Source: Lactobacillus sp. | GTDB taxonomy: Bacteria > Bacillota > Bacilli > Lactobacillales > Lactobacillaceae | Length of the DNA stretch: 58,605 bases | Assembly: GCA_022641965.1 (NCBI GenBank) | Contig: JALCDX010000008.1 | Coordinates: 1 to 58,605 of the forward strand | Direction of reading: 5' to 3' | In this document: piece by piece, positions 24,005 through 37,140 of the stretch | How positions within the stretch are numbered: position 1 is the stretch's first letter | Layout: each line of letters begins with the position of its first letter | Position numbers and translations under genes: made by a program | Notes under the pieces: generated by a model | What the model saw: only the letters and a program-made list of their open reading frames with translations | Databases searched by the model: none | What the model was told of the DNA's origin: nothing

Positions 24005-25693
24005 ATGGCTTTTAACGGCTTATTTATTCATAGTTTGCTGGGTGCTATCTCCCCCACCCTGCTCCACGGCAAATTGTCTAAAATTTACCAGCCCTTTGAT
24101 CATGATTTGATTTTTGTTTTCCGTCAGCAGCGTAAAAATTACAAACTGCTTTTGTCAGCTAATTCTCAAAATCCGCGTTTTTACTTCCAGACAGAAGAAA
24201 TTCCTAATCCAGAAAAAGCGCCGGCTTTTGTCATGGTCCTGCGCAAATACTTGGCCGGATCGATTTTGCAAAAAATCGAACAGGTTGGGTTAGACCGGAT
24301 CGTTAATTTTTATTTTTCCAACCGCAATGAACTCGGCGACGAAGTAAATTTGATGTTGTCCTTCGAACTGATGGGACGACACAGCAATGTTTTATTAGTT
24401 GATCAAACAACGGGCAAGATCATCGACTTGCTTAAGCGCATAAATCCAGATGAAAATCGAGCTCGGCTGCTTTTACCACATGCCAAGTACGAATTGCCGC
24501 CATTAAAACCAGGCCTCAATCCTCTCACAACAACAGCAGACGAATTTAAGCAACTAAGCAGCAGTAATGATCCCACTGATTTAGTTCAGCAGGTCACCGG
24601 CCTAGACCGCGATGATCGCGATGAACTGCTGGGCTATTTGACTGATGATTATTCTTTCACGTCCTGGCAAACGTTTTTCAACCAGCTGCAGCATCCTAAA
24701 GCCTATGTCCTGCAAAATCAGCGTCACCGCGATCGCATTTTTTTGTACTTGCCTTACCACTTGGATCTGACGCTGATTAGCAAAGCAGATGATCTCAACG
24801 TCGCTTTAGAAAATTTTTATCACGATCAGGCTACGCGGGACTGGGTCCGGCAAAAATCTGGCCGTATCAGAACTGTCATTAAGAACGAGCAAAAAAAGCT
24901 TCGCAAGAAAATTGCCAAGCTTGAACAGCAGCTTGATGCTGCTCAAAATGCTGATTCGCTCAGAATCAAAGGCGAACTGCTCAATACTTATCTGCGGCAA
25001 GTGCCCGCCGGCGCTGCTTCAGTCAAATTGCCAAATTATTATGATAATAATCAGCCGCTAACAATTGAGCTCGACCCATCCCTGCGGCCAGAACGCAATG
25101 CGCAAAAATACTTCACTCGCTATCAAAAGCTTCGTGATTCGGTCAAGCACGTTAATGAACAGATCAAATTGGCTCAGGCGGATTTAGCATATTTTGAAAC
25201 AATTCAAACTGAAATTGACATCGCTGACCCGCAAGATATTGATGCCATCAATGATGAATTGATCAATCAGGGCTACTTGCATGTTCAAAAACAGCAGCAT
25301 CGGCGTAAGAAGATTACCAGCCGTATCTTGCCGCAGTTTAAGCTGTCTTCTGGCAAAACTGTCTTAGTCGGAAAAAACAATTATGAAAACGACTGGCTAA
25401 CTTTTAAAAAAGCCAATAAAAACGACTATTGGTTCCACGTCAAAAATATGCCAGGTTCGCATACAATTTTGCAAGACAGCGAACCAACAGAGGCTGACAT
25501 TCAAGAAGCCGCCGAAATCGCTGCTTATTTTTCAAAAGGCAAGCACTCTAGTCATGTGCCGGTTGATTACATTCAAGTCAAGCGCATCAAAAAGCCGCAT
25601 GGCAGCAAGCCTGGCTTTGTTACTTATCGCGGCCAGCATTCAATTGAAGCAACCCCAATTGAAAGCGAAGTTCTCGCTAAAAAGATCAATTAA
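24005..25693 (+). CDS. rqcH: Rqc2 homologue RqcH (NFACT protein, formerly fibronectin-binding protein)
   Basis: A 562-residue NFACT protein. RqcH binds stalled 50S subunits with peptidyl-tRNA and adds C-terminal alanine tails that mark the chain for degradation. The NFACT-N domain starts MAFNGLFIHSLLGAISPTLLHGKLSKIYQP; a coiled coil covers about residues 290-320 and 375-400; the NFACT-R domain ends the protein with NDYWFHVKNMPGSHTIL and KGKHSSHVPVDYIQVKRIKKPHGSKPGFV. AAGGAGGAG and a TATAAT at 23970 precede the start. Confidence 0.93.
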   Translation: MAFNGLFIHSLLGAISPTLLHGKLSKIYQPFDHDLIFVFRQQRKNYKLLLSANSQNPRFYFQTEEIPNPEKAPAFVMVLRKYLAGSILQKIEQVGLDRIVNFYFSNRNELGDEVNLMLSFELMGRHSNVLLVDQTTGKIIDLLKRINPDENRARLLLPHAKYELPPLKPGLNPLTTTADEFKQLSSSNDPTDLVQQVTGLDRDDRDELLGYLTDDYSFTSWQTFFNQLQHPKAYVLQNQRHRDRIFLYLPYHLDLTLISKADDLNVALENFYHDQATRDWVRQKSGRIRTVIKNEQKKLRKKIAKLEQQLDAAQNADSLRIKGELLNTYLRQVPAGAASVKLPNYYDNNQPLTIELDPSLRPERNAQKYFTRYQKLRDSVKHVNEQIKLAQADLAYFETIQTEIDIADPQDIDAINDELINQGYLHVQKQQHRRKKITSRILPQFKLSSGKTVLVGKNNYENDWLTFKKANKNDYWFHVKNMPGSHTILQDSEPTEADIQEAAEIAAYFSKGKHSSHVPVDYIQVKRIKKPHGSKPGFVTYRGQHSIEATPIESEVLAKKIN

Positions 25694-25700
25694 AACAAGC

Positions 25701-25731
25701 AAAAAGACACTTCGAAATGAAGTGTCTTTTG
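25701..25731. terminator. Bidirectional terminator between rqcH and carB
   Basis: AAAAAGACACTTC pairs with GAAGTGTCTTTT around GAAAT. A T run follows on the plus strand; on the minus strand it can end the fhs-lspA-rluD-carAB transcript. Confidence 0.88.
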
Positions 25732-25754: not shown

Positions 25755-28700
25755 TTAAATTGGCTGGGTGGTCAGTGACAGCGATTCCAAAACTTCTAGT
25801 ACAAACTCTGCCGTTTGCAAGCTTGAAAAGACTGGAATGTGCGTACTTAGTGCTTGGTCACGGATCCTAATAGCATCTTGACTGGCAGCATCAGAGAAAT
25901 CGGTCACGTTGATAACTAGTTTGATTTGGTGACTGAATAATTTGCTAAGGAGGCTATCGCCGCCCTGGTGAATTTTTTTGACAATATCGGTTGTAATACC
26001 AGCTTCGGCCAGCATATTAGCTGTCCCTTCGGTGGCAATCAGCTTAAAGCCAAGCCGGTGGAAACGTTTAGCAATTTGCGTAGCTCGCTCCTTGTCCTTG
26101 TCCTTGACCGAAATGAAAATCGTACCATAAGTTGGCACATACATGCCACTTGCTTCGTAGCCTTTATACAGCGCCTTGGATAAGGCCGGATCACGCCCAA
26201 TAACGTTGCCAGCAGTTTTCATTTTCGAATCAAAAGTGTTGTCGCTGTGATAATTAAGCCAGCTAGAAACAGGCATTTTGATATAGATCAGCTTATTAGT
26301 CAGTTGCCAAGCTTGCGGTTTTACTAAGGATGGCAGTTTTTGACCCAGTAAAATAGATGTTGCTAAGCCCACCAAATTTTGGTTTAAAACTTTCGACATA
26401 AAGGCCAAATTATGACCGGCATATGTTTTGAGCTGCAAGAAATAGAGCTGGCCATCGGCGATCAAAAAGTTCAGATTGATTGGCCCAACTAAGTGCTCGG
26501 CTTTAATCAAGCCAGCCGTGGCTGTGCGAATAGCTTGCTCATTAACTTTTTTCAAGTTTTGCGGCGGAAAAACGGCGATTGAATCGCTTGCATGCGAGCC
26601 AGATTGTTCCAAGTGCTCAATAATTCCAGGTATGGTGACATGCATTCCGTCTGAAATGGCTGCGACTTCGTATTTCGCTCCAGCAATAAATTTAGAAATC
26701 CGAATGGTTTTTAATTCATTTTCTTGAATATATTTGCTTAAAGCCGGCATGTCAAAGACGACCGCTGATTTTTGTTCCTGCTTTTGATGACTAGTCCCGC
26801 CAATCAGTACTGGAAAACCTACTTTGACTGCAAAGCTGTAAGCTTTATTTTCATCGCTAGTCCGCAAGGCCGGCGGCATTGAAATTGACAACCGCTCAGT
26901 AATAGCATGCCAGTTTGGTTTAGTCAAAGCCGGCTGACCGATAATTTTGAGCCCTGCCCCAACCAGTTGCTTACGCAAAGCATTGACCTTTTTGCCGGAA
27001 AATTCCGTCATGACTTCAGTAATTTGCTCGCGCTCAGCAATATCCAAGATGTTTTCTAAAGTGACTGGTTCAAAGTAGACCTTGTTAACCGCATTATAGG
27101 CAGCAGAAATTGATTCAGCATTATTGCTGAGCAAAATAGCCGTTCTTCCCTGTGCTCGCAGGGTTTGCGCTGCTTGATAAAGCATGAAGTCGAATTCGCT
27201 GGTTTGCGAAACTTGGAAGGGATACAGCCCGACCAATAAAACCTTATTTTGACTAGTTTGCTGGCCGGCTTCATCTTCAACCCCGTAAGCTGAATAAACA
27301 GCATTGATTTTGGGCTGCCACATGCCAGCCGCTCCGTTCACTCGCAAATAAACCGGCTCAATCCCCGCTTGTGTGCGGGCCTGTCTGATTTCACGGGCTG
27401 ATAAAGACGCTAGTTTAGCGATTGCTTTGTCTGAAAAACCTGTCTTTTTAGCAGCTAAAAGCAAGTCACTCGCAGGCACTTGGCTAGTTACGAGTCGATT
27501 CATGACGTCAATTGCCTGGTTCAGCAGTCGCAAAAACAATGGTTGAATTTTGGTAGCCGCTTGAATTTTAACCAGACTAATTTTACGCGCCAAGGCCGCT
27601 AGTAAAACTATCAGGTGCATTTCGTCAGGATGGCTCAAATCGTGCAAGACTACGTCATCATTTTTGGCAACTTCAGCTTGAAACACACTGGCAGCATTGC
27701 TGAAACTCATCGTTGATTCCAAGCCCTTGAAAAATGCTGACGAGAAATCAATTCCCAAGCTGATTGTTTCACCACTAGCTTGCATCCTAGGCCCCAGTTC
27801 ATAATGATTGAATCCGCTATCAGAAAATGACCAGTAAGGTGTCTTCACAGCAACTGCATCTAGAACTGGTTCTACCGCTGCATTTAAGCCAGACTCTGGG
27901 TCGTCAATTTCATTTAAATTGTAGCCTAAAGCCAGCTTAGCCGTTACATAGCCTAAACTGTAAACCCCAGCTCGATAAGCAAGCAATGAACTGCGGGCAA
28001 TCCGCGGTTTAAAGCCTAAAATTTTCACCGCTAATTGATTAAGATCATGCTTAACTGCAAAGTGCAAACTAAGCGCACCGACCAAATCCAAGTTGGCGGC
28101 GACTTTGCCAGCATAAGCGCGCAAACGCTGTACTTCATCATTGTTAAAACCTAGCAGCGGCGAGATCAAGATCGAATCGCCAGAATTAATCGCCACCGGT
28201 TCTAAAGACGAAGCCAAGTTGATGAAGCAAACGTTTCCGTTACCATCGCGCACTAAGTCGACGATAACTTCTTCCCAATCGGACAAGTCTTCCGTTATGC
28301 GATAATTGTGCAATTTGAAATGTTCACTCGTCCGTTCTTGCTCAAAATATTTTTCTAAGCCGCCTTGATCTTCAAAATGCAAGTGATCATTTTTCACATA
28401 ACGGTGATATTTAGTCAGGAGGACTGGATATGTCAGCTGCTTTAGTGTTTGGGTCAGTGGCACGTTTTTTTGCAAACGCCAGGATTTGCTGGTAGGCAGT
28501 TGATTGTCACGCAAAAATTTTAGCTGCTGACTTTGCTGCTGCAGCAAAAGTGCCTTTTTAGTGACGGTCAGCAGTTCAATCTGCATTTCGTTCAAAATGC
28601 CATCTTCCAACAGCTGTCTGGTTAAATTCAGTCCCACTAGGCTGCCGTAAGCAGTGACAATGGCATTTGGCTCTTCAATCCGCAAAATCCGCTTCATAAA

Positions 28701-28916
28701 AGACAGCGTCAGCGGCTCAAGGTAAATCGTAACGCCAGGCCGTTTATTGGTTGCGATGGTGGCTGGATTAGGATTGACCAGCACGACCTGCACATTGTCT
28801 TCAACAAAGGCATCGATAGCCTGCTTGGTCATTAAGTCCAGCTCAGCAACGGCCCCAACAATATTGGGACCAGACCCGATAATTAATACTTTGTTCAAAT
28901 CAGTTCTTAACGGCAT
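25755..28916 (-). CDS. carB: CarB-like protein, predicted catalytically inactive
   Basis: A 1053-residue homologue of the large subunit of carbamoyl phosphate synthetase, with all parts in order: first ATP-grasp half, oligomerisation part, second ATP-grasp half (from about 555) and the C-terminal MGS-like allosteric domain (from about 930). By eye alignment with E. coli CarB, metal ligands E299/N301 are G301/K303 and E841/N843 are Q828/K830; Q285 is H285, R169 is T168, R715 is Gly, and both GG loops are gone. The allosteric domain keeps ATEGTA and GTIFISVKD. The frame is unbroken and overlaps carA by 17 bases. A pseudoenzyme or sensor role is inference. Confidence 0.85.
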   Translation of the reverse strand: MPLRTDLNKVLIIGSGPNIVGAVAELDLMTKQAIDAFVEDNVQVVLVNPNPATIATNKRPGVTIYLEPLTLSFMKRILRIEEPNAIVTAYGSLVGLNLTRQLLEDGILNEMQIELLTVTKKALLLQQQSQQLKFLRDNQLPTSKSWRLQKNVPLTQTLKQLTYPVLLTKYHRYVKNDHLHFEDQGGLEKYFEQERTSEHFKLHNYRITEDLSDWEEVIVDLVRDGNGNVCFINLASSLEPVAINSGDSILISPLLGFNNDEVQRLRAYAGKVAANLDLVGALSLHFAVKHDLNQLAVKILGFKPRIARSSLLAYRAGVYSLGYVTAKLALGYNLNEIDDPESGLNAAVEPVLDAVAVKTPYWSFSDSGFNHYELGPRMQASGETISLGIDFSSAFFKGLESTMSFSNAASVFQAEVAKNDDVVLHDLSHPDEMHLIVLLAALARKISLVKIQAATKIQPLFLRLLNQAIDVMNRLVTSQVPASDLLLAAKKTGFSDKAIAKLASLSAREIRQARTQAGIEPVYLRVNGAAGMWQPKINAVYSAYGVEDEAGQQTSQNKVLLVGLYPFQVSQTSEFDFMLYQAAQTLRAQGRTAILLSNNAESISAAYNAVNKVYFEPVTLENILDIAEREQITEVMTEFSGKKVNALRKQLVGAGLKIIGQPALTKPNWHAITERLSISMPPALRTSDENKAYSFAVKVGFPVLIGGTSHQKQEQKSAVVFDMPALSKYIQENELKTIRISKFIAGAKYEVAAISDGMHVTIPGIIEHLEQSGSHASDSIAVFPPQNLKKVNEQAIRTATAGLIKAEHLVGPINLNFLIADGQLYFLQLKTYAGHNLAFMSKVLNQNLVGLATSILLGQKLPSLVKPQAWQLTNKLIYIKMPVSSWLNYHSDNTFDSKMKTAGNVIGRDPALSKALYKGYEASGMYVPTYGTIFISVKDKDKERATQIAKRFHRLGFKLIATEGTANMLAEAGITTDIVKKIHQGGDSLLSKLFSHQIKLVINVTDFSDAASQDAIRIRDQALSTHIPVFSSLQTAEFVLEVLESLSLTTQPI

Positions 28917-29967
28917 TTTTATTCATCATCTTAAAAAAATCATCAAAAATGACACTCGCTTCAAAAGCACCAGGTGAACCCTCTGGGTTAAAAGCAGTGG
29001 CTATAATTTTTTCCTCGTCAAAGCGGTAGCCGGCCAGCAAATCGCTATGCAAATCGTAATATTTTTCAGAAAAATCAAATTCTACCGTTTGCGGAAGCGC
29101 CAATTGGGATAGATTCATGGCAGTTTGCCAGATCAGGCCGGTATTTTGTGCAATGACCGGATAATTGCTGCCATTATAGGCAGGCTGTAAATCTGCTAGT
29201 TCAAATTTCAAATAGTCGCTCAAGGCAAGAAAGCCCAAACCAATGCCCATAAACGGCAACTTGGTTAAAAAGCGTTTAAAAATTGGCGCTAAATTGCTGC
29301 GTACTTCTTGCACGGATCCAGGGCCATTTGAAACGATCAACCCATTTGGCTGCAAATTTGCTATGTCTTCGGCGCTAGCGGTCACCGGCATCACAACGAC
29401 ATTAATTTTGCGCAGAGATAAAGAACGCAGCAGCGAATTTTTCAAGCCTAGATCAATCACAGCGACAGTTTTGCCAACATTTGGCACCGCATAAGCATTG
29501 GTCGTTGAGGTCTGGGCAGTTTTGTTTTTAGGCAGAACTAGGGCCTTAATCTGGTCAAAAGCATGCTGGTCGTCGGTATCCATAATCGAGGCTTTAATGA
29601 CCGGCTCAGCCACCAGTTTTCTGACCAAAGCATGCGTATCAACGCCATAAATACCCGGAATGCCCTTTTCTTGCAAAAAATCATTCAGGTCTTCTGCGGC
29701 TGAGCGGCCGGTAGCAGCCACTCCGCCAGCAATAATGCCTTTAATGCGCGGATTAATCGCTTCATAATCAATAGCATTAATACCGCTAGCCCCAATCAAG
29801 GGTGTCGAAAACAGCAAAATTTTACCGTCATTAGCAGGGTCTGTTAGAGCCTCTTGATAGCCGTAATTACCGGTAAACAGGGCTAGCTCGCCAGTGGTGA
29901 TAGTTGAGGCGCCAAAGCCTTCGCCAGCAAAAGAAGTTCCATCTGCTAAAACTAAATAGCGTTTCAT
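28900..29967 (-). CDS. carA: CarA-like protein, predicted inactive glutaminase
   Basis: A 355-residue homologue of the small subunit of carbamoyl phosphate synthetase. The N-terminal CPSase domain is clear (FTGNYGYQEALTDPAN, GIPGIYGVDTHALVRKL), and so is the amidotransferase fold (VAVIDLGLKNSLLRSL, IVSNGPGSV). The nucleophile elbow GICLG reads GIGLG (G243 for Cys), the HPE triad motif reads NPE (N327), and QNHG reads QNTG. It therefore should not release ammonia from glutamine. It overlaps rluD by 4 bases (ATGA), which argues for maintained coupling. Confidence 0.87.
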   Translation of the reverse strand: MKRYLVLADGTSFAGEGFGASTITTGELALFTGNYGYQEALTDPANDGKILLFSTPLIGASGINAIDYEAINPRIKGIIAGGVAATGRSAAEDLNDFLQEKGIPGIYGVDTHALVRKLVAEPVIKASIMDTDDQHAFDQIKALVLPKNKTAQTSTTNAYAVPNVGKTVAVIDLGLKNSLLRSLSLRKINVVVMPVTASAEDIANLQPNGLIVSNGPGSVQEVRSNLAPIFKRFLTKLPFMGIGLGFLALSDYLKFELADLQPAYNGSNYPVIAQNTGLIWQTAMNLSQLALPQTVEFDFSEKYYDLHSDLLAGYRFDEEKIIATAFNPEGSPGAFEASVIFDDFFKMMNKNAVKN

Positions 29968-30875
29968 TGTTTTGCCTCTTTTCTTAGTCTGGCTAAAGTA
30001 GTCTGAAAAATTGCTGGTGGCTCAACTGAGAATTCGCACCATTTGCCCGTACGGGGATGCTTAAAGCCTAACACCCCAGCATGCAGAAATTGCCCATGTC
30101 CTGGCAATGTATGCCGAGGTCCATACAAAGGATCGCCAGCAACTGGATGGCCGATATAAGCTAAGTGTACCCGAATTTGGTGAGTGCGACCAGTTTCTAG
30201 CTGACAGGCAATCAAACTGTAGCCCCGGAATTGCTCTAGCACCTTAAAGTGAGTCACAGCAGCCTTGCCGCCAGCCACAACTGCCATTTGCTTGCGATCA
30301 TATGGGTTGCGGCCAATCGGCGCATCAACCGTGCCGGTCTTTTCCGTAAAATTGCCATGCACGATCGCTAGATAAACTCGCTTATTGCTTTTTTCAGCCA
30401 GCTGCTTTTCTAACGATGAGCGGGCTGCGGCATTTTTGGCAATCATCAATAAGCCAGAAGTGTCTTTATCAATGCGATGCACAATGCCTGGTCGAAAGCC
30501 CTCAGGGCTTTTAGCCAATTCGCGCGTATGAAACAGCAGTGCATTCACTAAAGTATGGTCTGGATGGCCAGCTGATGGATGAACTACCATTCCTTGCGGC
30601 TTATTAACCACGATGACGTCTTGGTCTTCATAAACAATCGCTAACGGGATATTTTCTGGCTCAATTGATAACGGCTGCAAAGCCGGCACATGAACTGAAA
30701 TCTTGGCAAGCTGTTCTAGCTTCAGCGAACTTTTAGCTTTTTGCCCGTCAACTAGAATATCGCCGCTTTTGATTAATTCCTGCACGCGCGTCCGGCTAAG
30801 AGACTTTATTTGGCCGGCCACAAACTTATCCAATCGTTCGCCGCTGCCTAAGGCCTGCAATTGATAATCAGTCAT
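29964..30875 (-). CDS. RluD-family 23S rRNA pseudouridine synthase
   Basis: A 303-residue enzyme that isomerises uridines in 23S rRNA. An S4 domain (LDKFVAGQIKSLSRTRVQELIKSGDILV) precedes the catalytic domain with HRIDKDTSGLLMIAKN, whose aspartate is the nucleophile, and GRTHQIRVHLAYIGHPVAGDPLYG. I start at ATG 30875, which overlaps the lspA stop by 8 bases and has AAGGA before it, not at the earlier in-frame codon 30893. The lspA-rluD order is conserved in Bacilli, where the pyr operon usually comes next. Confidence 0.93.
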   Translation of the reverse strand: MTDYQLQALGSGERLDKFVAGQIKSLSRTRVQELIKSGDILVDGQKAKSSLKLEQLAKISVHVPALQPLSIEPENIPLAIVYEDQDVIVVNKPQGMVVHPSAGHPDHTLVNALLFHTRELAKSPEGFRPGIVHRIDKDTSGLLMIAKNAAARSSLEKQLAEKSNKRVYLAIVHGNFTEKTGTVDAPIGRNPYDRKQMAVVAGGKAAVTHFKVLEQFRGYSLIACQLETGRTHQIRVHLAYIGHPVAGDPLYGPRHTLPGHGQFLHAGVLGFKHPRTGKWCEFSVEPPAIFQTTLARLRKEAKQ

Positions 30876-31329
30876 GCTTTTCCTTGCCTTCAAAGAAAAT
30901 CAAATAGATAAAAATCAAAATGATGCCGACGGTAATGGCACTATCTGCAAGATTAAAAATATTAAAATTCATAAAATCGAGCTGAATCATGTCCACAACA
31001 TAATGATAGTGCAAGCGGTCAATCAAATTGCCGATGATTCCGCCCAAAACCAGGCTGAGGCCGACACTAAATAAGACTGAACGTGGCGATTGTTTGAACA
31101 AGTAATAGAGTACGATGGCAATGGCAATCACAGAAATAATGTAGAAAAATACCATCTGGCCGGGAAAGATATTCCAGGCAGCACCATTATTGCGCAAATA
31201 AGTCAGCGAAAATAAGCCGGGCACAGCCGGCTTAACTTCTCCTAGCGCCCAATTATTAACGATCAAAGCCTTTAAGCCTTGATCGGCCAGGACAATCAAC
31301 AAAGAAATAATCAAATAAAGTGCTTGCAT
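30868..31329 (-). CDS. lspA: Lipoprotein signal peptidase II
   Basis: A 153-residue membrane aspartyl protease that removes the signal peptide of prolipoproteins after lipidation. Four hydrophobic helices are visible. Catalytic aspartates lie in YHYVVDMI and FNLADSAI; the NGAAWNI and GGIIGNLIDR segments are conserved. Its ATG shares one base with the fhs stop codon. Confidence 0.95.
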   Translation of the reverse strand: MQALYLIISLLIVLADQGLKALIVNNWALGEVKPAVPGLFSLTYLRNNGAAWNIFPGQMVFFYIISVIAIAIVLYYLFKQSPRSVLFSVGLSLVLGGIIGNLIDRLHYHYVVDMIQLDFMNFNIFNLADSAITVGIILIFIYLIFFEGKEKHD

Positions 31330-36756: not shown

Positions 36757-37140
36757 CCCTGCGCGCAAGTTCTGTAAGCCACGTTCTGTTCAAACTGCTC
36801 GTGGGTCTGAGCAATTATCAGCAATCATCTATCTTCACCGAAGTGATCTGACCTTTAGTTCATTTCCTCAGGCCAAGACGCCCCTACCAAAGTTTGGGTT
36901 GCCCGCTTGCAGGGTTTACCTCGTTCCACCAAAGCGATTTCTCGCCTTGCTTCGTCACTGTGGCACTTTCCAGGATAGTCGCGCATATCCGAAGACTTAG
37001 CGCTTTTTCCGCCATCATTGCCAAGCAATGCCTTAGCTTCTTGGGCTAAGTACAAACACTACCAGCATCTCAGCTCGTGCGGGCGTGGACTTTCCTCAGC
37101 TGATTCAAACCAGCCGCGATTGCTCAAACTTGCGCACACA
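36757..37140 (-). ncRNA. rnpB: RNase P RNA (Bacillus-type, class B)
   Basis: The catalytic RNA of RNase P, which trims the 5' end of pre-tRNA. On the minus strand the 5' part has GCGCAAGTTTGAGCAATCGC and the near-universal GAGGAAAGTCC (37098-37088); the 3' part has the conserved ACAGAA box twice and CTTGCGCGC, which pairs with the 5' GCGCAAG to form helix P1. Length of about 380 bases fits. A TATAAT lies at 37153-37148, about 8 bases before the predicted start. Ends are accurate to a few bases. Confidence 0.95.

Follow-up and report, generated by a model that had tools for sequence, protein, structure and literature searches.

A full-length CarA-CarB pair without its catalytic residues is retained across Lactobacillus and may be a nucleotide-responsive pseudoenzyme

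We analysed a 58,605-nucleotide stretch of Lactobacillus sp. DNA (GenBank assembly GCA_022641965.1, contig JALCDX010000008.1), hereafter called the window, which is a 58.6-kb contig of a source genome of 808 kb that is about 68% complete. It encodes two proteins, CarA' and CarB', related to the small (glutaminase) and large subunits of carbamoyl-phosphate synthase (CPS). As judged from alignments and comparison of relatives, the pair keeps the full architecture of the enzyme, lacks residues of all three catalytic centres and is under strong purifying selection across Lactobacillus. According to the genome searches, it survives where ordinary CarB and PyrB are gone, and in other genera of the Lactobacillaceae the corresponding position is filled by CarAB pairs that are apparently dead as well. 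The explanation that we favour, with about even confidence, is that CarA'-CarB' is a nucleotide-responsive two-subunit pseudoenzyme derived from CPS. No paper describing the pair was found in searches of an open-access library, not all of which were aimed at the pair.

Pfam matches and alignments with solved structures showed that CarA' and CarB' carry the full domain set of a bacterial CPS. CarB' could be aligned to Escherichia coli CarB across residues 1-1027, and the pair is about 27-28% identical to E. coli CarAB. The AlphaFold model of CarA' had a mean predicted local distance difference test (pLDDT) score of 85, and its top match in Foldseek was E. coli CarA (1jdb_C), with a template-modelling (TM) score of 0.91 at 26% identity. 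When scored against NCBIfam equivalogs, the window pair was over the cut-off of PRK12838.1 and PRK05294.1 and under that of TIGR01368 and TIGR01369. The pair of L. johnsonii likewise scored as CPS under two NCBI equivalog models. Since two such models pass the pairs of both the window and L. johnsonii, the public annotation probably mislabels this pair.

The catalytic residues were then compared after aligning the pair to E. coli CarAB. In the window CarA', the catalytic Cys269 of the glutaminase is replaced by Gly243 and the triad His353 by Asn327, just as a first-pass annotation, made by eye from the sequence, had read them; Gln273 is a Leu, and Glu355 is kept as Glu329. A further change read at that stage, from QNHG to QNTG, proved to be a slip of alignment, since the N, H and G match N285, L286 and S287 (MNLS). 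For CarB', we take Q285/E299/N301 and Q829/E841/N843 to be the metal ligands of the two synthetase sites. Here E299/N301 are G301/K303, E841/N843 are Q828/K830, Q285 is H285, R169 is T168, and the glycine loops are gone (G175/G176 to V174/K175 and G721/G722 to Q713/E714), all of which agrees with the reading by eye. H243, R715, E761 and R845 of the synthetase sites are missing as well. The roles of most of the E. coli residues named in this work, that is, the ATP-site, metal, tunnel and UMP-site lists, belong to the general background on the enzyme. Those of Cys269, His353, Thr977, Lys993 and Thr1042 are named in passages of PMC6245113.

Homologues with the same lost residues were collected into a family table of named Lactobacillus-type loci, comprising 55 CarA' and 56 CarB', one of the latter gapped at E841/N843. 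Many of these named records are the same genomes as in the first alignment with E. coli CarAB, and the two counts are not independent. C269G, Q273L and H353N were found in 55/55 CarA'. In CarB', the second metal site carried both E841Q and N843K in 55/55 scorable rows, and R715G and E761K were present in 56/56; at the first metal site, E299 was gone in 55/55 scorable rows, Q285 in 55/55 and N301 in 54/55. Such uniform loss across the named relatives is far beyond chance. The catalytic residues are still absent on proper alignment, both from the window and from the named relatives, while six ordinary CarAB pairs of Lactobacillus (L058-L060 and L157-L159) retain every one of them.

These losses bear on whether the pair could still be an ordinary CPS or an ammonia-dependent one like human CPS1, which we consider extremely improbable. 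PRK12838.1 and PRK05294.1 are passed, but TIGR01368 and TIGR01369 are not, and A23 and G575, two carbamate-tunnel residues, are conserved in the family in a changed form. A CPS that has lost only its glutaminase Cys could still use ammonia, as passages of PMC4655335 describe for CPS1; the metal ligands, the glycine loops, R715, E761, R845 and H243 are, however, lost too. Residual CPS activity was rejected on the lost synthetase-site and glutaminase residues, and the pair probably no longer makes carbamoyl phosphate. As a separate observation, a Tissierellia metagenome-assembled genome (L118, 4893-9174) encodes a CarA in which Cys269 is Gly and His353 is Tyr, next to a CarB that keeps the checked catalytic residues; this CPS is likely to be ammonia-dependent.

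CarB' was present in 74 of the 75 Lactobacillus genomes, the window's included, and the sole miss was a genome that is 59% complete. It was found in 60/60 of the Lactobacillus genomes with at least 90% completeness and at most 5% contamination. Among the 74 matched CarB', 71 cover the full profile, 2 (G001 and G032) stop at a contig end, and 1 (G021, L. hamsteri) is interrupted. The frames in relatives, which decay would be expected to fill with stops, are thus open. The ratio of nonsynonymous to synonymous substitution rates (dN/dS) was calculated by the Nei-Gojobori method with our own script, the pairs L069/L077 and L070/L080 being near-copies of each other. It ranged from 0.042 to 0.158 for CarB' (11 scalable pairs of relatives) and from 0.010 to 0.079 for CarA' (12 pairs of relatives), far below the value of about 1 that decay would give. 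For the window and its nearest relative, L063, with a protein identity of 89% and a proportion of differing synonymous sites (pS) of 0.74, dN/dS was not scalable because the synonymous sites are saturated. The nonsynonymous difference between these two was 0.068 and 0.055 for the pair, compared with 0.053-0.094 for rluD, lspA, fhs, rqcH and degV, where lspA and fhs are presumably the right names for these genes at or near the locus. Among 15 pairs from six genomes holding both forms, conservation was similar for CarA' (identity 0.689-0.846) and active CarA (0.725-0.842), whereas CarB' (0.597-0.781) was less conserved than active CarB (0.803-0.870).

A decaying pseudogene is so improbable as to be negligible. 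The one interrupted copy, that of L. hamsteri (L111, G021), may be an assembly error, and decay is refuted by the dN/dS values of 0.010-0.158, the 71/74 whole CarB' and the frames that stay open under strong purifying selection across the genus. The first-pass annotation had proposed a two-subunit pseudoenzyme kept for another purpose, and the low dN/dS, the open frames and the absence of catalytic residues all support this proposal. Two irregular records were noted. The L. hamsteri CarB' (L111, 5995-9182) is split near its C-terminus by either a frameshift or an assembly error, and a record titled Faecalicatena absiana YH-C36a (L096) holds a Lactobacillus-type carA'-carB' and is probably mislabelled or contaminated.

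A search for a second, intact carAB, as suggested at the outset, found an intact ordinary CarB alongside CarB' in 51/75 Lactobacillus genomes. Among the 58 genomes that are at least 95% complete, 14 had no intact ordinary CarB, and CarB' was whole in 13 of these 14. When the window genome and 36 congeners were examined, 14 were without intact ordinary CarB, and 13/14 were also without a PyrB over the cut-off; G034, whose ordinary CarB is split between contigs, was left out of this count. CarB' is present in these 13 genomes without PyrB. Some of these CarB and PyrB absences may be gaps because five of the 14 genomes (G000, G001, G004, G018 and G032) are less than 90% complete. Three genomes that are 99% complete and have CarB' (G003, G005 and G009) gave no good PyrR match either. 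In two other 99% complete Lactobacillus genomes (G010 and G014), ordinary carB is broken or shortened and CarB' is whole, probably reflecting a recent loss of the active enzyme.

The pair is therefore kept where gene losses preclude de novo pyrimidine synthesis, and its role goes beyond assisting active CarAB. A role as a regulatory or stabilising subunit of ordinary CarAB, in mixed complexes, would suit the 51/75 genomes that also hold an intact ordinary CarB and the high conservation of CarA' residues 1-150 (0.48 of columns), a region that meets CarB in E. coli. We nevertheless judge it very improbable, given the whole CarB' in 13/14 of the genomes at least 95% complete without intact ordinary CarB, and given that the record of the window's nearest relative, L063, in which one contig by itself reaches 1.56 Mb, contains a single CarB oligomerisation domain, which belongs to CarB'. 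Retention without ordinary CarAB largely refutes this role.

To see where constraint lies within CarB', we took the share of columns conserved at 95% or more, with rows shorter than 1000 amino acids and L147 and L129 excluded. For 52 CarB' (mean identity 0.58), the share was 0.20 in the first ATP-grasp domain, 0.33 in the second and 0.37 in the MGS domain. The corresponding values were 0.53, 0.40 and 0.19 for 18 ordinary Lactobacillaceae CarB (mean identity 0.70) and 0.79, 0.70 and 0.54 for six ordinary Lactobacillus CarB (0.83). The order of conservation is therefore reversed in CarB' relative to ordinary CarB, with MGS highest and the first ATP-grasp lowest. The high relative value of MGS is not due to closer sequences because, of the three sets, the CarB' sequences have the lowest mean identity.

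The MGS-like C-terminal domain had been described as preserved, and at the residue level this holds: K942, T962, T965, K981 and N1003 of the window match E. coli K954, T974, T977, K993 and N1015, all kept. Residues of the uridine monophosphate (UMP)/inosine monophosphate (IMP) site, in a list that is mostly taken from general background, were kept at 95% or more in 5/5 cases, compared with 24/138 MGS columns (P about 1e-4). With a wider list of UMP/IMP-site residues, 6/7 were kept, against 3/11 and 2/9 of the named ATP-site residues. According to passages of PMC6245113, inhibition by UMP and its binding depend critically on Thr977 and Lys993, and UMP acts on the second Mg-ATP. The suggestion of possible nucleotide sensing thus gains indirect support from the apparent shift of constraint onto MGS.

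In CarB', 43 columns are conserved in the family but differ from the ordinary residue, and many of them belong to the pocket of the second ATP-grasp (R715G, E761K, Q829H, E841Q, N843K, R845Y and R848H). This suggests remodelling of the pocket rather than relaxation. The pocket of the C-terminal half that is conserved in the family consists of K748, H816, Q828, K830, Y832 and H835. Some pseudoenzymes have later turned out to be active, and a new catalytic activity in this remodelled pocket would fit both the nearly uniform choice of a single new residue at each replaced position, unlike mere relaxation, and an ATP-grasp2 conservation of 0.33 that is little lower than the 0.40 of ordinary Lactobacillaceae CarB. 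However, the metal ligands of both sites and the glycine loops are gone, and we know of no ATP-grasp enzyme that works without metal ligands. We regard a new activity as quite unlikely.

The place of the pair in the chromosome was compared with that of active carAB. In the active-carAB loci fetched from Lactobacillales, carAB lies downstream of rluD in 8/19, six of them with rqcH beyond, and three that were checked (G038, G043 and G044) have pyrR, pyrP and pyrB in the gap downstream of rluD. What the ancestral pyr operon contained in full is general background. The slot that holds pyr genes and active carAB in these 8/19 loci is the one that the pair occupies, in line with the initial statement that it sits in the usual pyr-operon place after lspA-rluD.

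Other apparently dead pairs fill this slot as well. Fourteen genomes from 12 other Lactobacillaceae genera (L200-L213), a non-random set out of 17 that we picked, mainly because their best score was unusual, have a carA-carB pair after rluD in 14/14 cases, with rqcH in 12/14 and pyrR between rluD and carA in 13/14. In the CarA of these loci, Cys269 is Gly in 14/14 and His353 is absent in 14/14. Their CarB is shortened to 792-857 amino acids, with no MGS and no second synthetase site; it keeps E215 in 14/14, H243 in 13/14 and, at site 1, E299 in 5/14 (N301 changed). Since E299 is kept in those 5/14, the L200-L213 pairs are presumed inactive on the strength of their CarA and of the lack of a second site. 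A profile of the short CarB gave matches of at least 868 bits among the matches listed from a 397-genome search; in the genome-wide homologue searches, at most two candidates were scored per genome. Three genomes of another Lactobacillales family (L214-L216) have pyrR near a carA in which Gly replaces Cys269, together with a CarB-like protein that is only 577-591 amino acids long. A genome profile search found no match at the level of ordinary CarB in these three genomes, and PyrB is present.

In G069, which belongs to another genus, the slot holds a PyrR RNA element, pyrR, pyrP, carA, carB and rqcH (L147, 4205-10754). This CarA has C269G and H353D, and the CarB has Q285H, E299A, Q829K and E841A and keeps R169, N301, R715 and N843. 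The CarB is full-length and 44% identical to E. coli CarB, and an intact CarAB is present elsewhere in G069. The G069 locus is possibly an intermediate state. In a tree of the CarB N-terminal half, all 29 dead rows fell on one side of a branch with a Shimodaira-Hasegawa-like approximate likelihood ratio test (SH-aLRT) support of 99.9, in an analysis for which the tool warned of long branches. The active rows fell on one side of the CarA tree (support 84). In the full-length CarB tree, L147 grouped with the active rows (support 80), and in the tree without clostridia it grouped with CarB' (83). Marker trees of RqcH and RluD placed G069 outside the Lactobacillus-Holzapfeliella group. All of these were quick trees with long-branched dead rows. 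A single origin of the dead pairs is likely but not proven because of the long branches, the warning of the tool and the full-length tree that places L147 with the active rows. A move of the G069-type linked pyrR-pyrP to elsewhere in Lactobacillus was unsupported by the PyrR tree (43 rows).

The proximity of pyrR raises another explanation, in which a dead CarAB senses bicarbonate or carbamoyl phosphate jointly with PyrR2, and the Lactobacillus pair is a descendant without a linked pyrR. Work by Arsene-Ploetze in 2006 reportedly dealt with PyrR2 and the pyr response to inorganic carbon in L. plantarum. According to passages of PMC3582564, it is through this second PyrR of L. plantarum that the pyr operon responds to inorganic carbon, and its gene pyrR2 is lp_1782 in a passage of PMC7911632. 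The order rluD-pyrR-carA-carB, with dead carA-carB, in 13/14 of the fetched loci, the succession of PyrR RNA element, pyrR, pyrP, carA and carB in G069, and the retention of the N-terminal bicarbonate-handling half by the short CarB (E215 in 14/14, H243 in 13/14) all point in this direction. In Lactobacillus, however, relaxed constraint is seen in the N-terminal half and H243 is lost; the PyrR tree, which is poorly resolved, does not group the pyrP-linked Lactobacillus PyrR with the PyrR linked to dead pairs; and none of our results puts a dead pair next to lp_1782, for which a search of an open-access library gave no paper on the adjoining genes. We think this sensor unlikely, although it deserves more credit than the other alternatives.

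If CarA'-CarB' is instead a nucleotide-responsive pseudoenzyme, as we favour, the MGS domain of CarB' would still bind a nucleotide monophosphate, namely UMP, IMP or a close relative, as suggested by the kept residues. The signal would pass, as in the true enzyme, from MGS to the remodelled C-terminal half of CarB', which bears a pocket rich in lysine that has become newly fixed. On binding the ligand, the CarA'-CarB' complex would take on a different shape or oligomeric state, and its grip on a putative partner would change accordingly. The outcome would be a readout of the pyrimidine/purine balance that is independent of the biosynthetic pathway.

Several points weigh against this reading. 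The residue table also holds ordinary rows, 23 CarB and 22 CarA, taken from the homologue scan and three from Lactobacillus, and 6/22 of the CarA rows labelled ordinary, that of L118 among them, have no glutaminase Cys; its loss is not peculiar to the clade. Most of the UMP/IMP-site list comes from general background. E. coli R1031 is Arg in 20/23 ordinary rows and Asp in 53/53 scorable CarB', and T1017 falls below 95% conservation in CarB'; ligand specificity may have changed because of these two differences. The ornithine residue T1042 is Ser in CarB'. The window CarB' itself departs from the family at two residues that most members share (H816 to N816 and K714 to E714). The strong conservation of MGS could instead reflect a protein contact. 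Lastly, sensing through MGS cannot be the role of every dead pair, since the short CarB has no MGS.

A broader proposal would bring both kinds of dead pair together. An ancient Lactobacillaceae family of dead CPS in the pyr-operon slot, beside PyrR in most genera looked at, may be a metabolite-sensing device of which the other genera keep the bicarbonate-handling half together with PyrR and Lactobacillus keeps the nucleotide-binding MGS half, and which outlives the pathway. This proposal is tentative, and we hold it to be possible but somewhat more apt to be wrong than right.

The coordinates of the locus are given in Table 1. The frames, lengths (355 and 1053 codons) and positions initially reported match those found here, and so does the tight coupling claimed for the genes. 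On the minus strand, lspA, rluD, carA' and carB' follow one another and overlap, by 4 nucleotides between rluD and carA' and by 17 nucleotides between carA' and carB', and rqcH converges from the opposite side. The interval from rluD to rqcH holds carA'-carB' alone, and pyrR is absent from the operon of the pair. Among the named Lactobacillus-type loci, rluD precedes carA' in 53/55, a homologue of lspA lies upstream of rluD in 53/55, and rqcH follows carB' in 48/55. The terminator-like hairpin between carB' and rqcH is weak evidence because the window has 17 such sites, with 10.3 expected. Elsewhere in the window, a bacterial class B RNase P RNA was found at 36770-37131 on the minus strand (Rfam, 309 bits).

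Table 1. Features of the carA'-carB' locus, in window coordinates.
Feature	Position	Strand	Basis
carA' (CarA', apparently dead small subunit/glutaminase of CPS, 355 amino acids)	28900..29967	-	PF00988 and PF00117
Gly243 codon, replacing catalytic Cys269	29239..29241	-	alignment
Asn327 codon, replacing triad His353	28987..28989	-	alignment
carB' (CarB', apparently dead large subunit of CPS, 1053 amino acids)	25755..28916	-	PF25596 (two stretches), PF02786 (two stretches), PF02787, PF02142
Remodelled pocket in the C-terminal synthetase half (CarB' residues 551-930)	26127..27266	-	conserved-but-different columns and residue table
MGS-like domain retaining UMP/IMP-site residues (CarB' residues 931-1053)	25758..26126	-	PF02142 and residue alignment
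rluD, upstream of and overlapping carA'	29964..30893	-	TIGR00005 over cut-off; RluD model PRK11180.1 under cut-off
lspA (name from the first-pass annotation, family presumed)	30868..31329	-	open reading frame
rqcH (NFACT), convergent neighbour marking the end of the ancestral pyr slot	24005..25693	+	PF05833
Terminator-like hairpin between carB' and rqcH	25702..25730	both strands	pattern scan

Lactobacillus includes common symbionts of humans, dairy and bees. Because the pair passes two curated NCBI models for CPS, the first step of pyrimidine synthesis can be assigned in error to species that lack the pathway, both in annotation and in metabolic models. If the sensor reading is true, a classic allosteric enzyme would have been reduced to its allosteric part, providing a natural experiment on interdomain signalling in CPS. 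The pair also gives a concrete starting point for asking how the supply of pyrimidines in lactobacilli is linked to nucleotide pools and to inorganic carbon.

The pair shares with E. coli CarAB the domains of both subunits, the CarA fold (TM score 0.91), the order of carA before carB and the UMP/IMP-site residues; unlike E. coli CarAB, to which it is about 27-28% identical, it has neither the catalytic Cys and His nor either metal site or the glycine loops. Human CPS1, described in passages of PMC4655335 as ammonia-dependent with a dead glutaminase-like domain, has also lost the glutaminase Cys, but it is an active synthetase, whereas CarB' is without the residues of both synthetase sites. The dead pairs of L200-L213 and G069 resemble the Lactobacillus pair in lying after rluD, in having Gly for Cys269 and no His353, and in joining it in the CarB N-half tree. 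Those of L200-L213 differ from it in their short CarB without MGS and in the pyrR in front in 13/14, while the Lactobacillus pair is full-length, has MGS and is without a linked pyrR. L. plantarum PyrR2 is a second PyrR in Lactobacillaceae, and the dead pairs of other genera adjoin pyrR, in contrast to the Lactobacillus pair. Regulatory pseudoenzymes are enzyme paralogues without catalytic residues that are kept for another job; unlike such pseudoenzymes in general, here both subunits, with three apparently dead active centres, are inherited as a pair.

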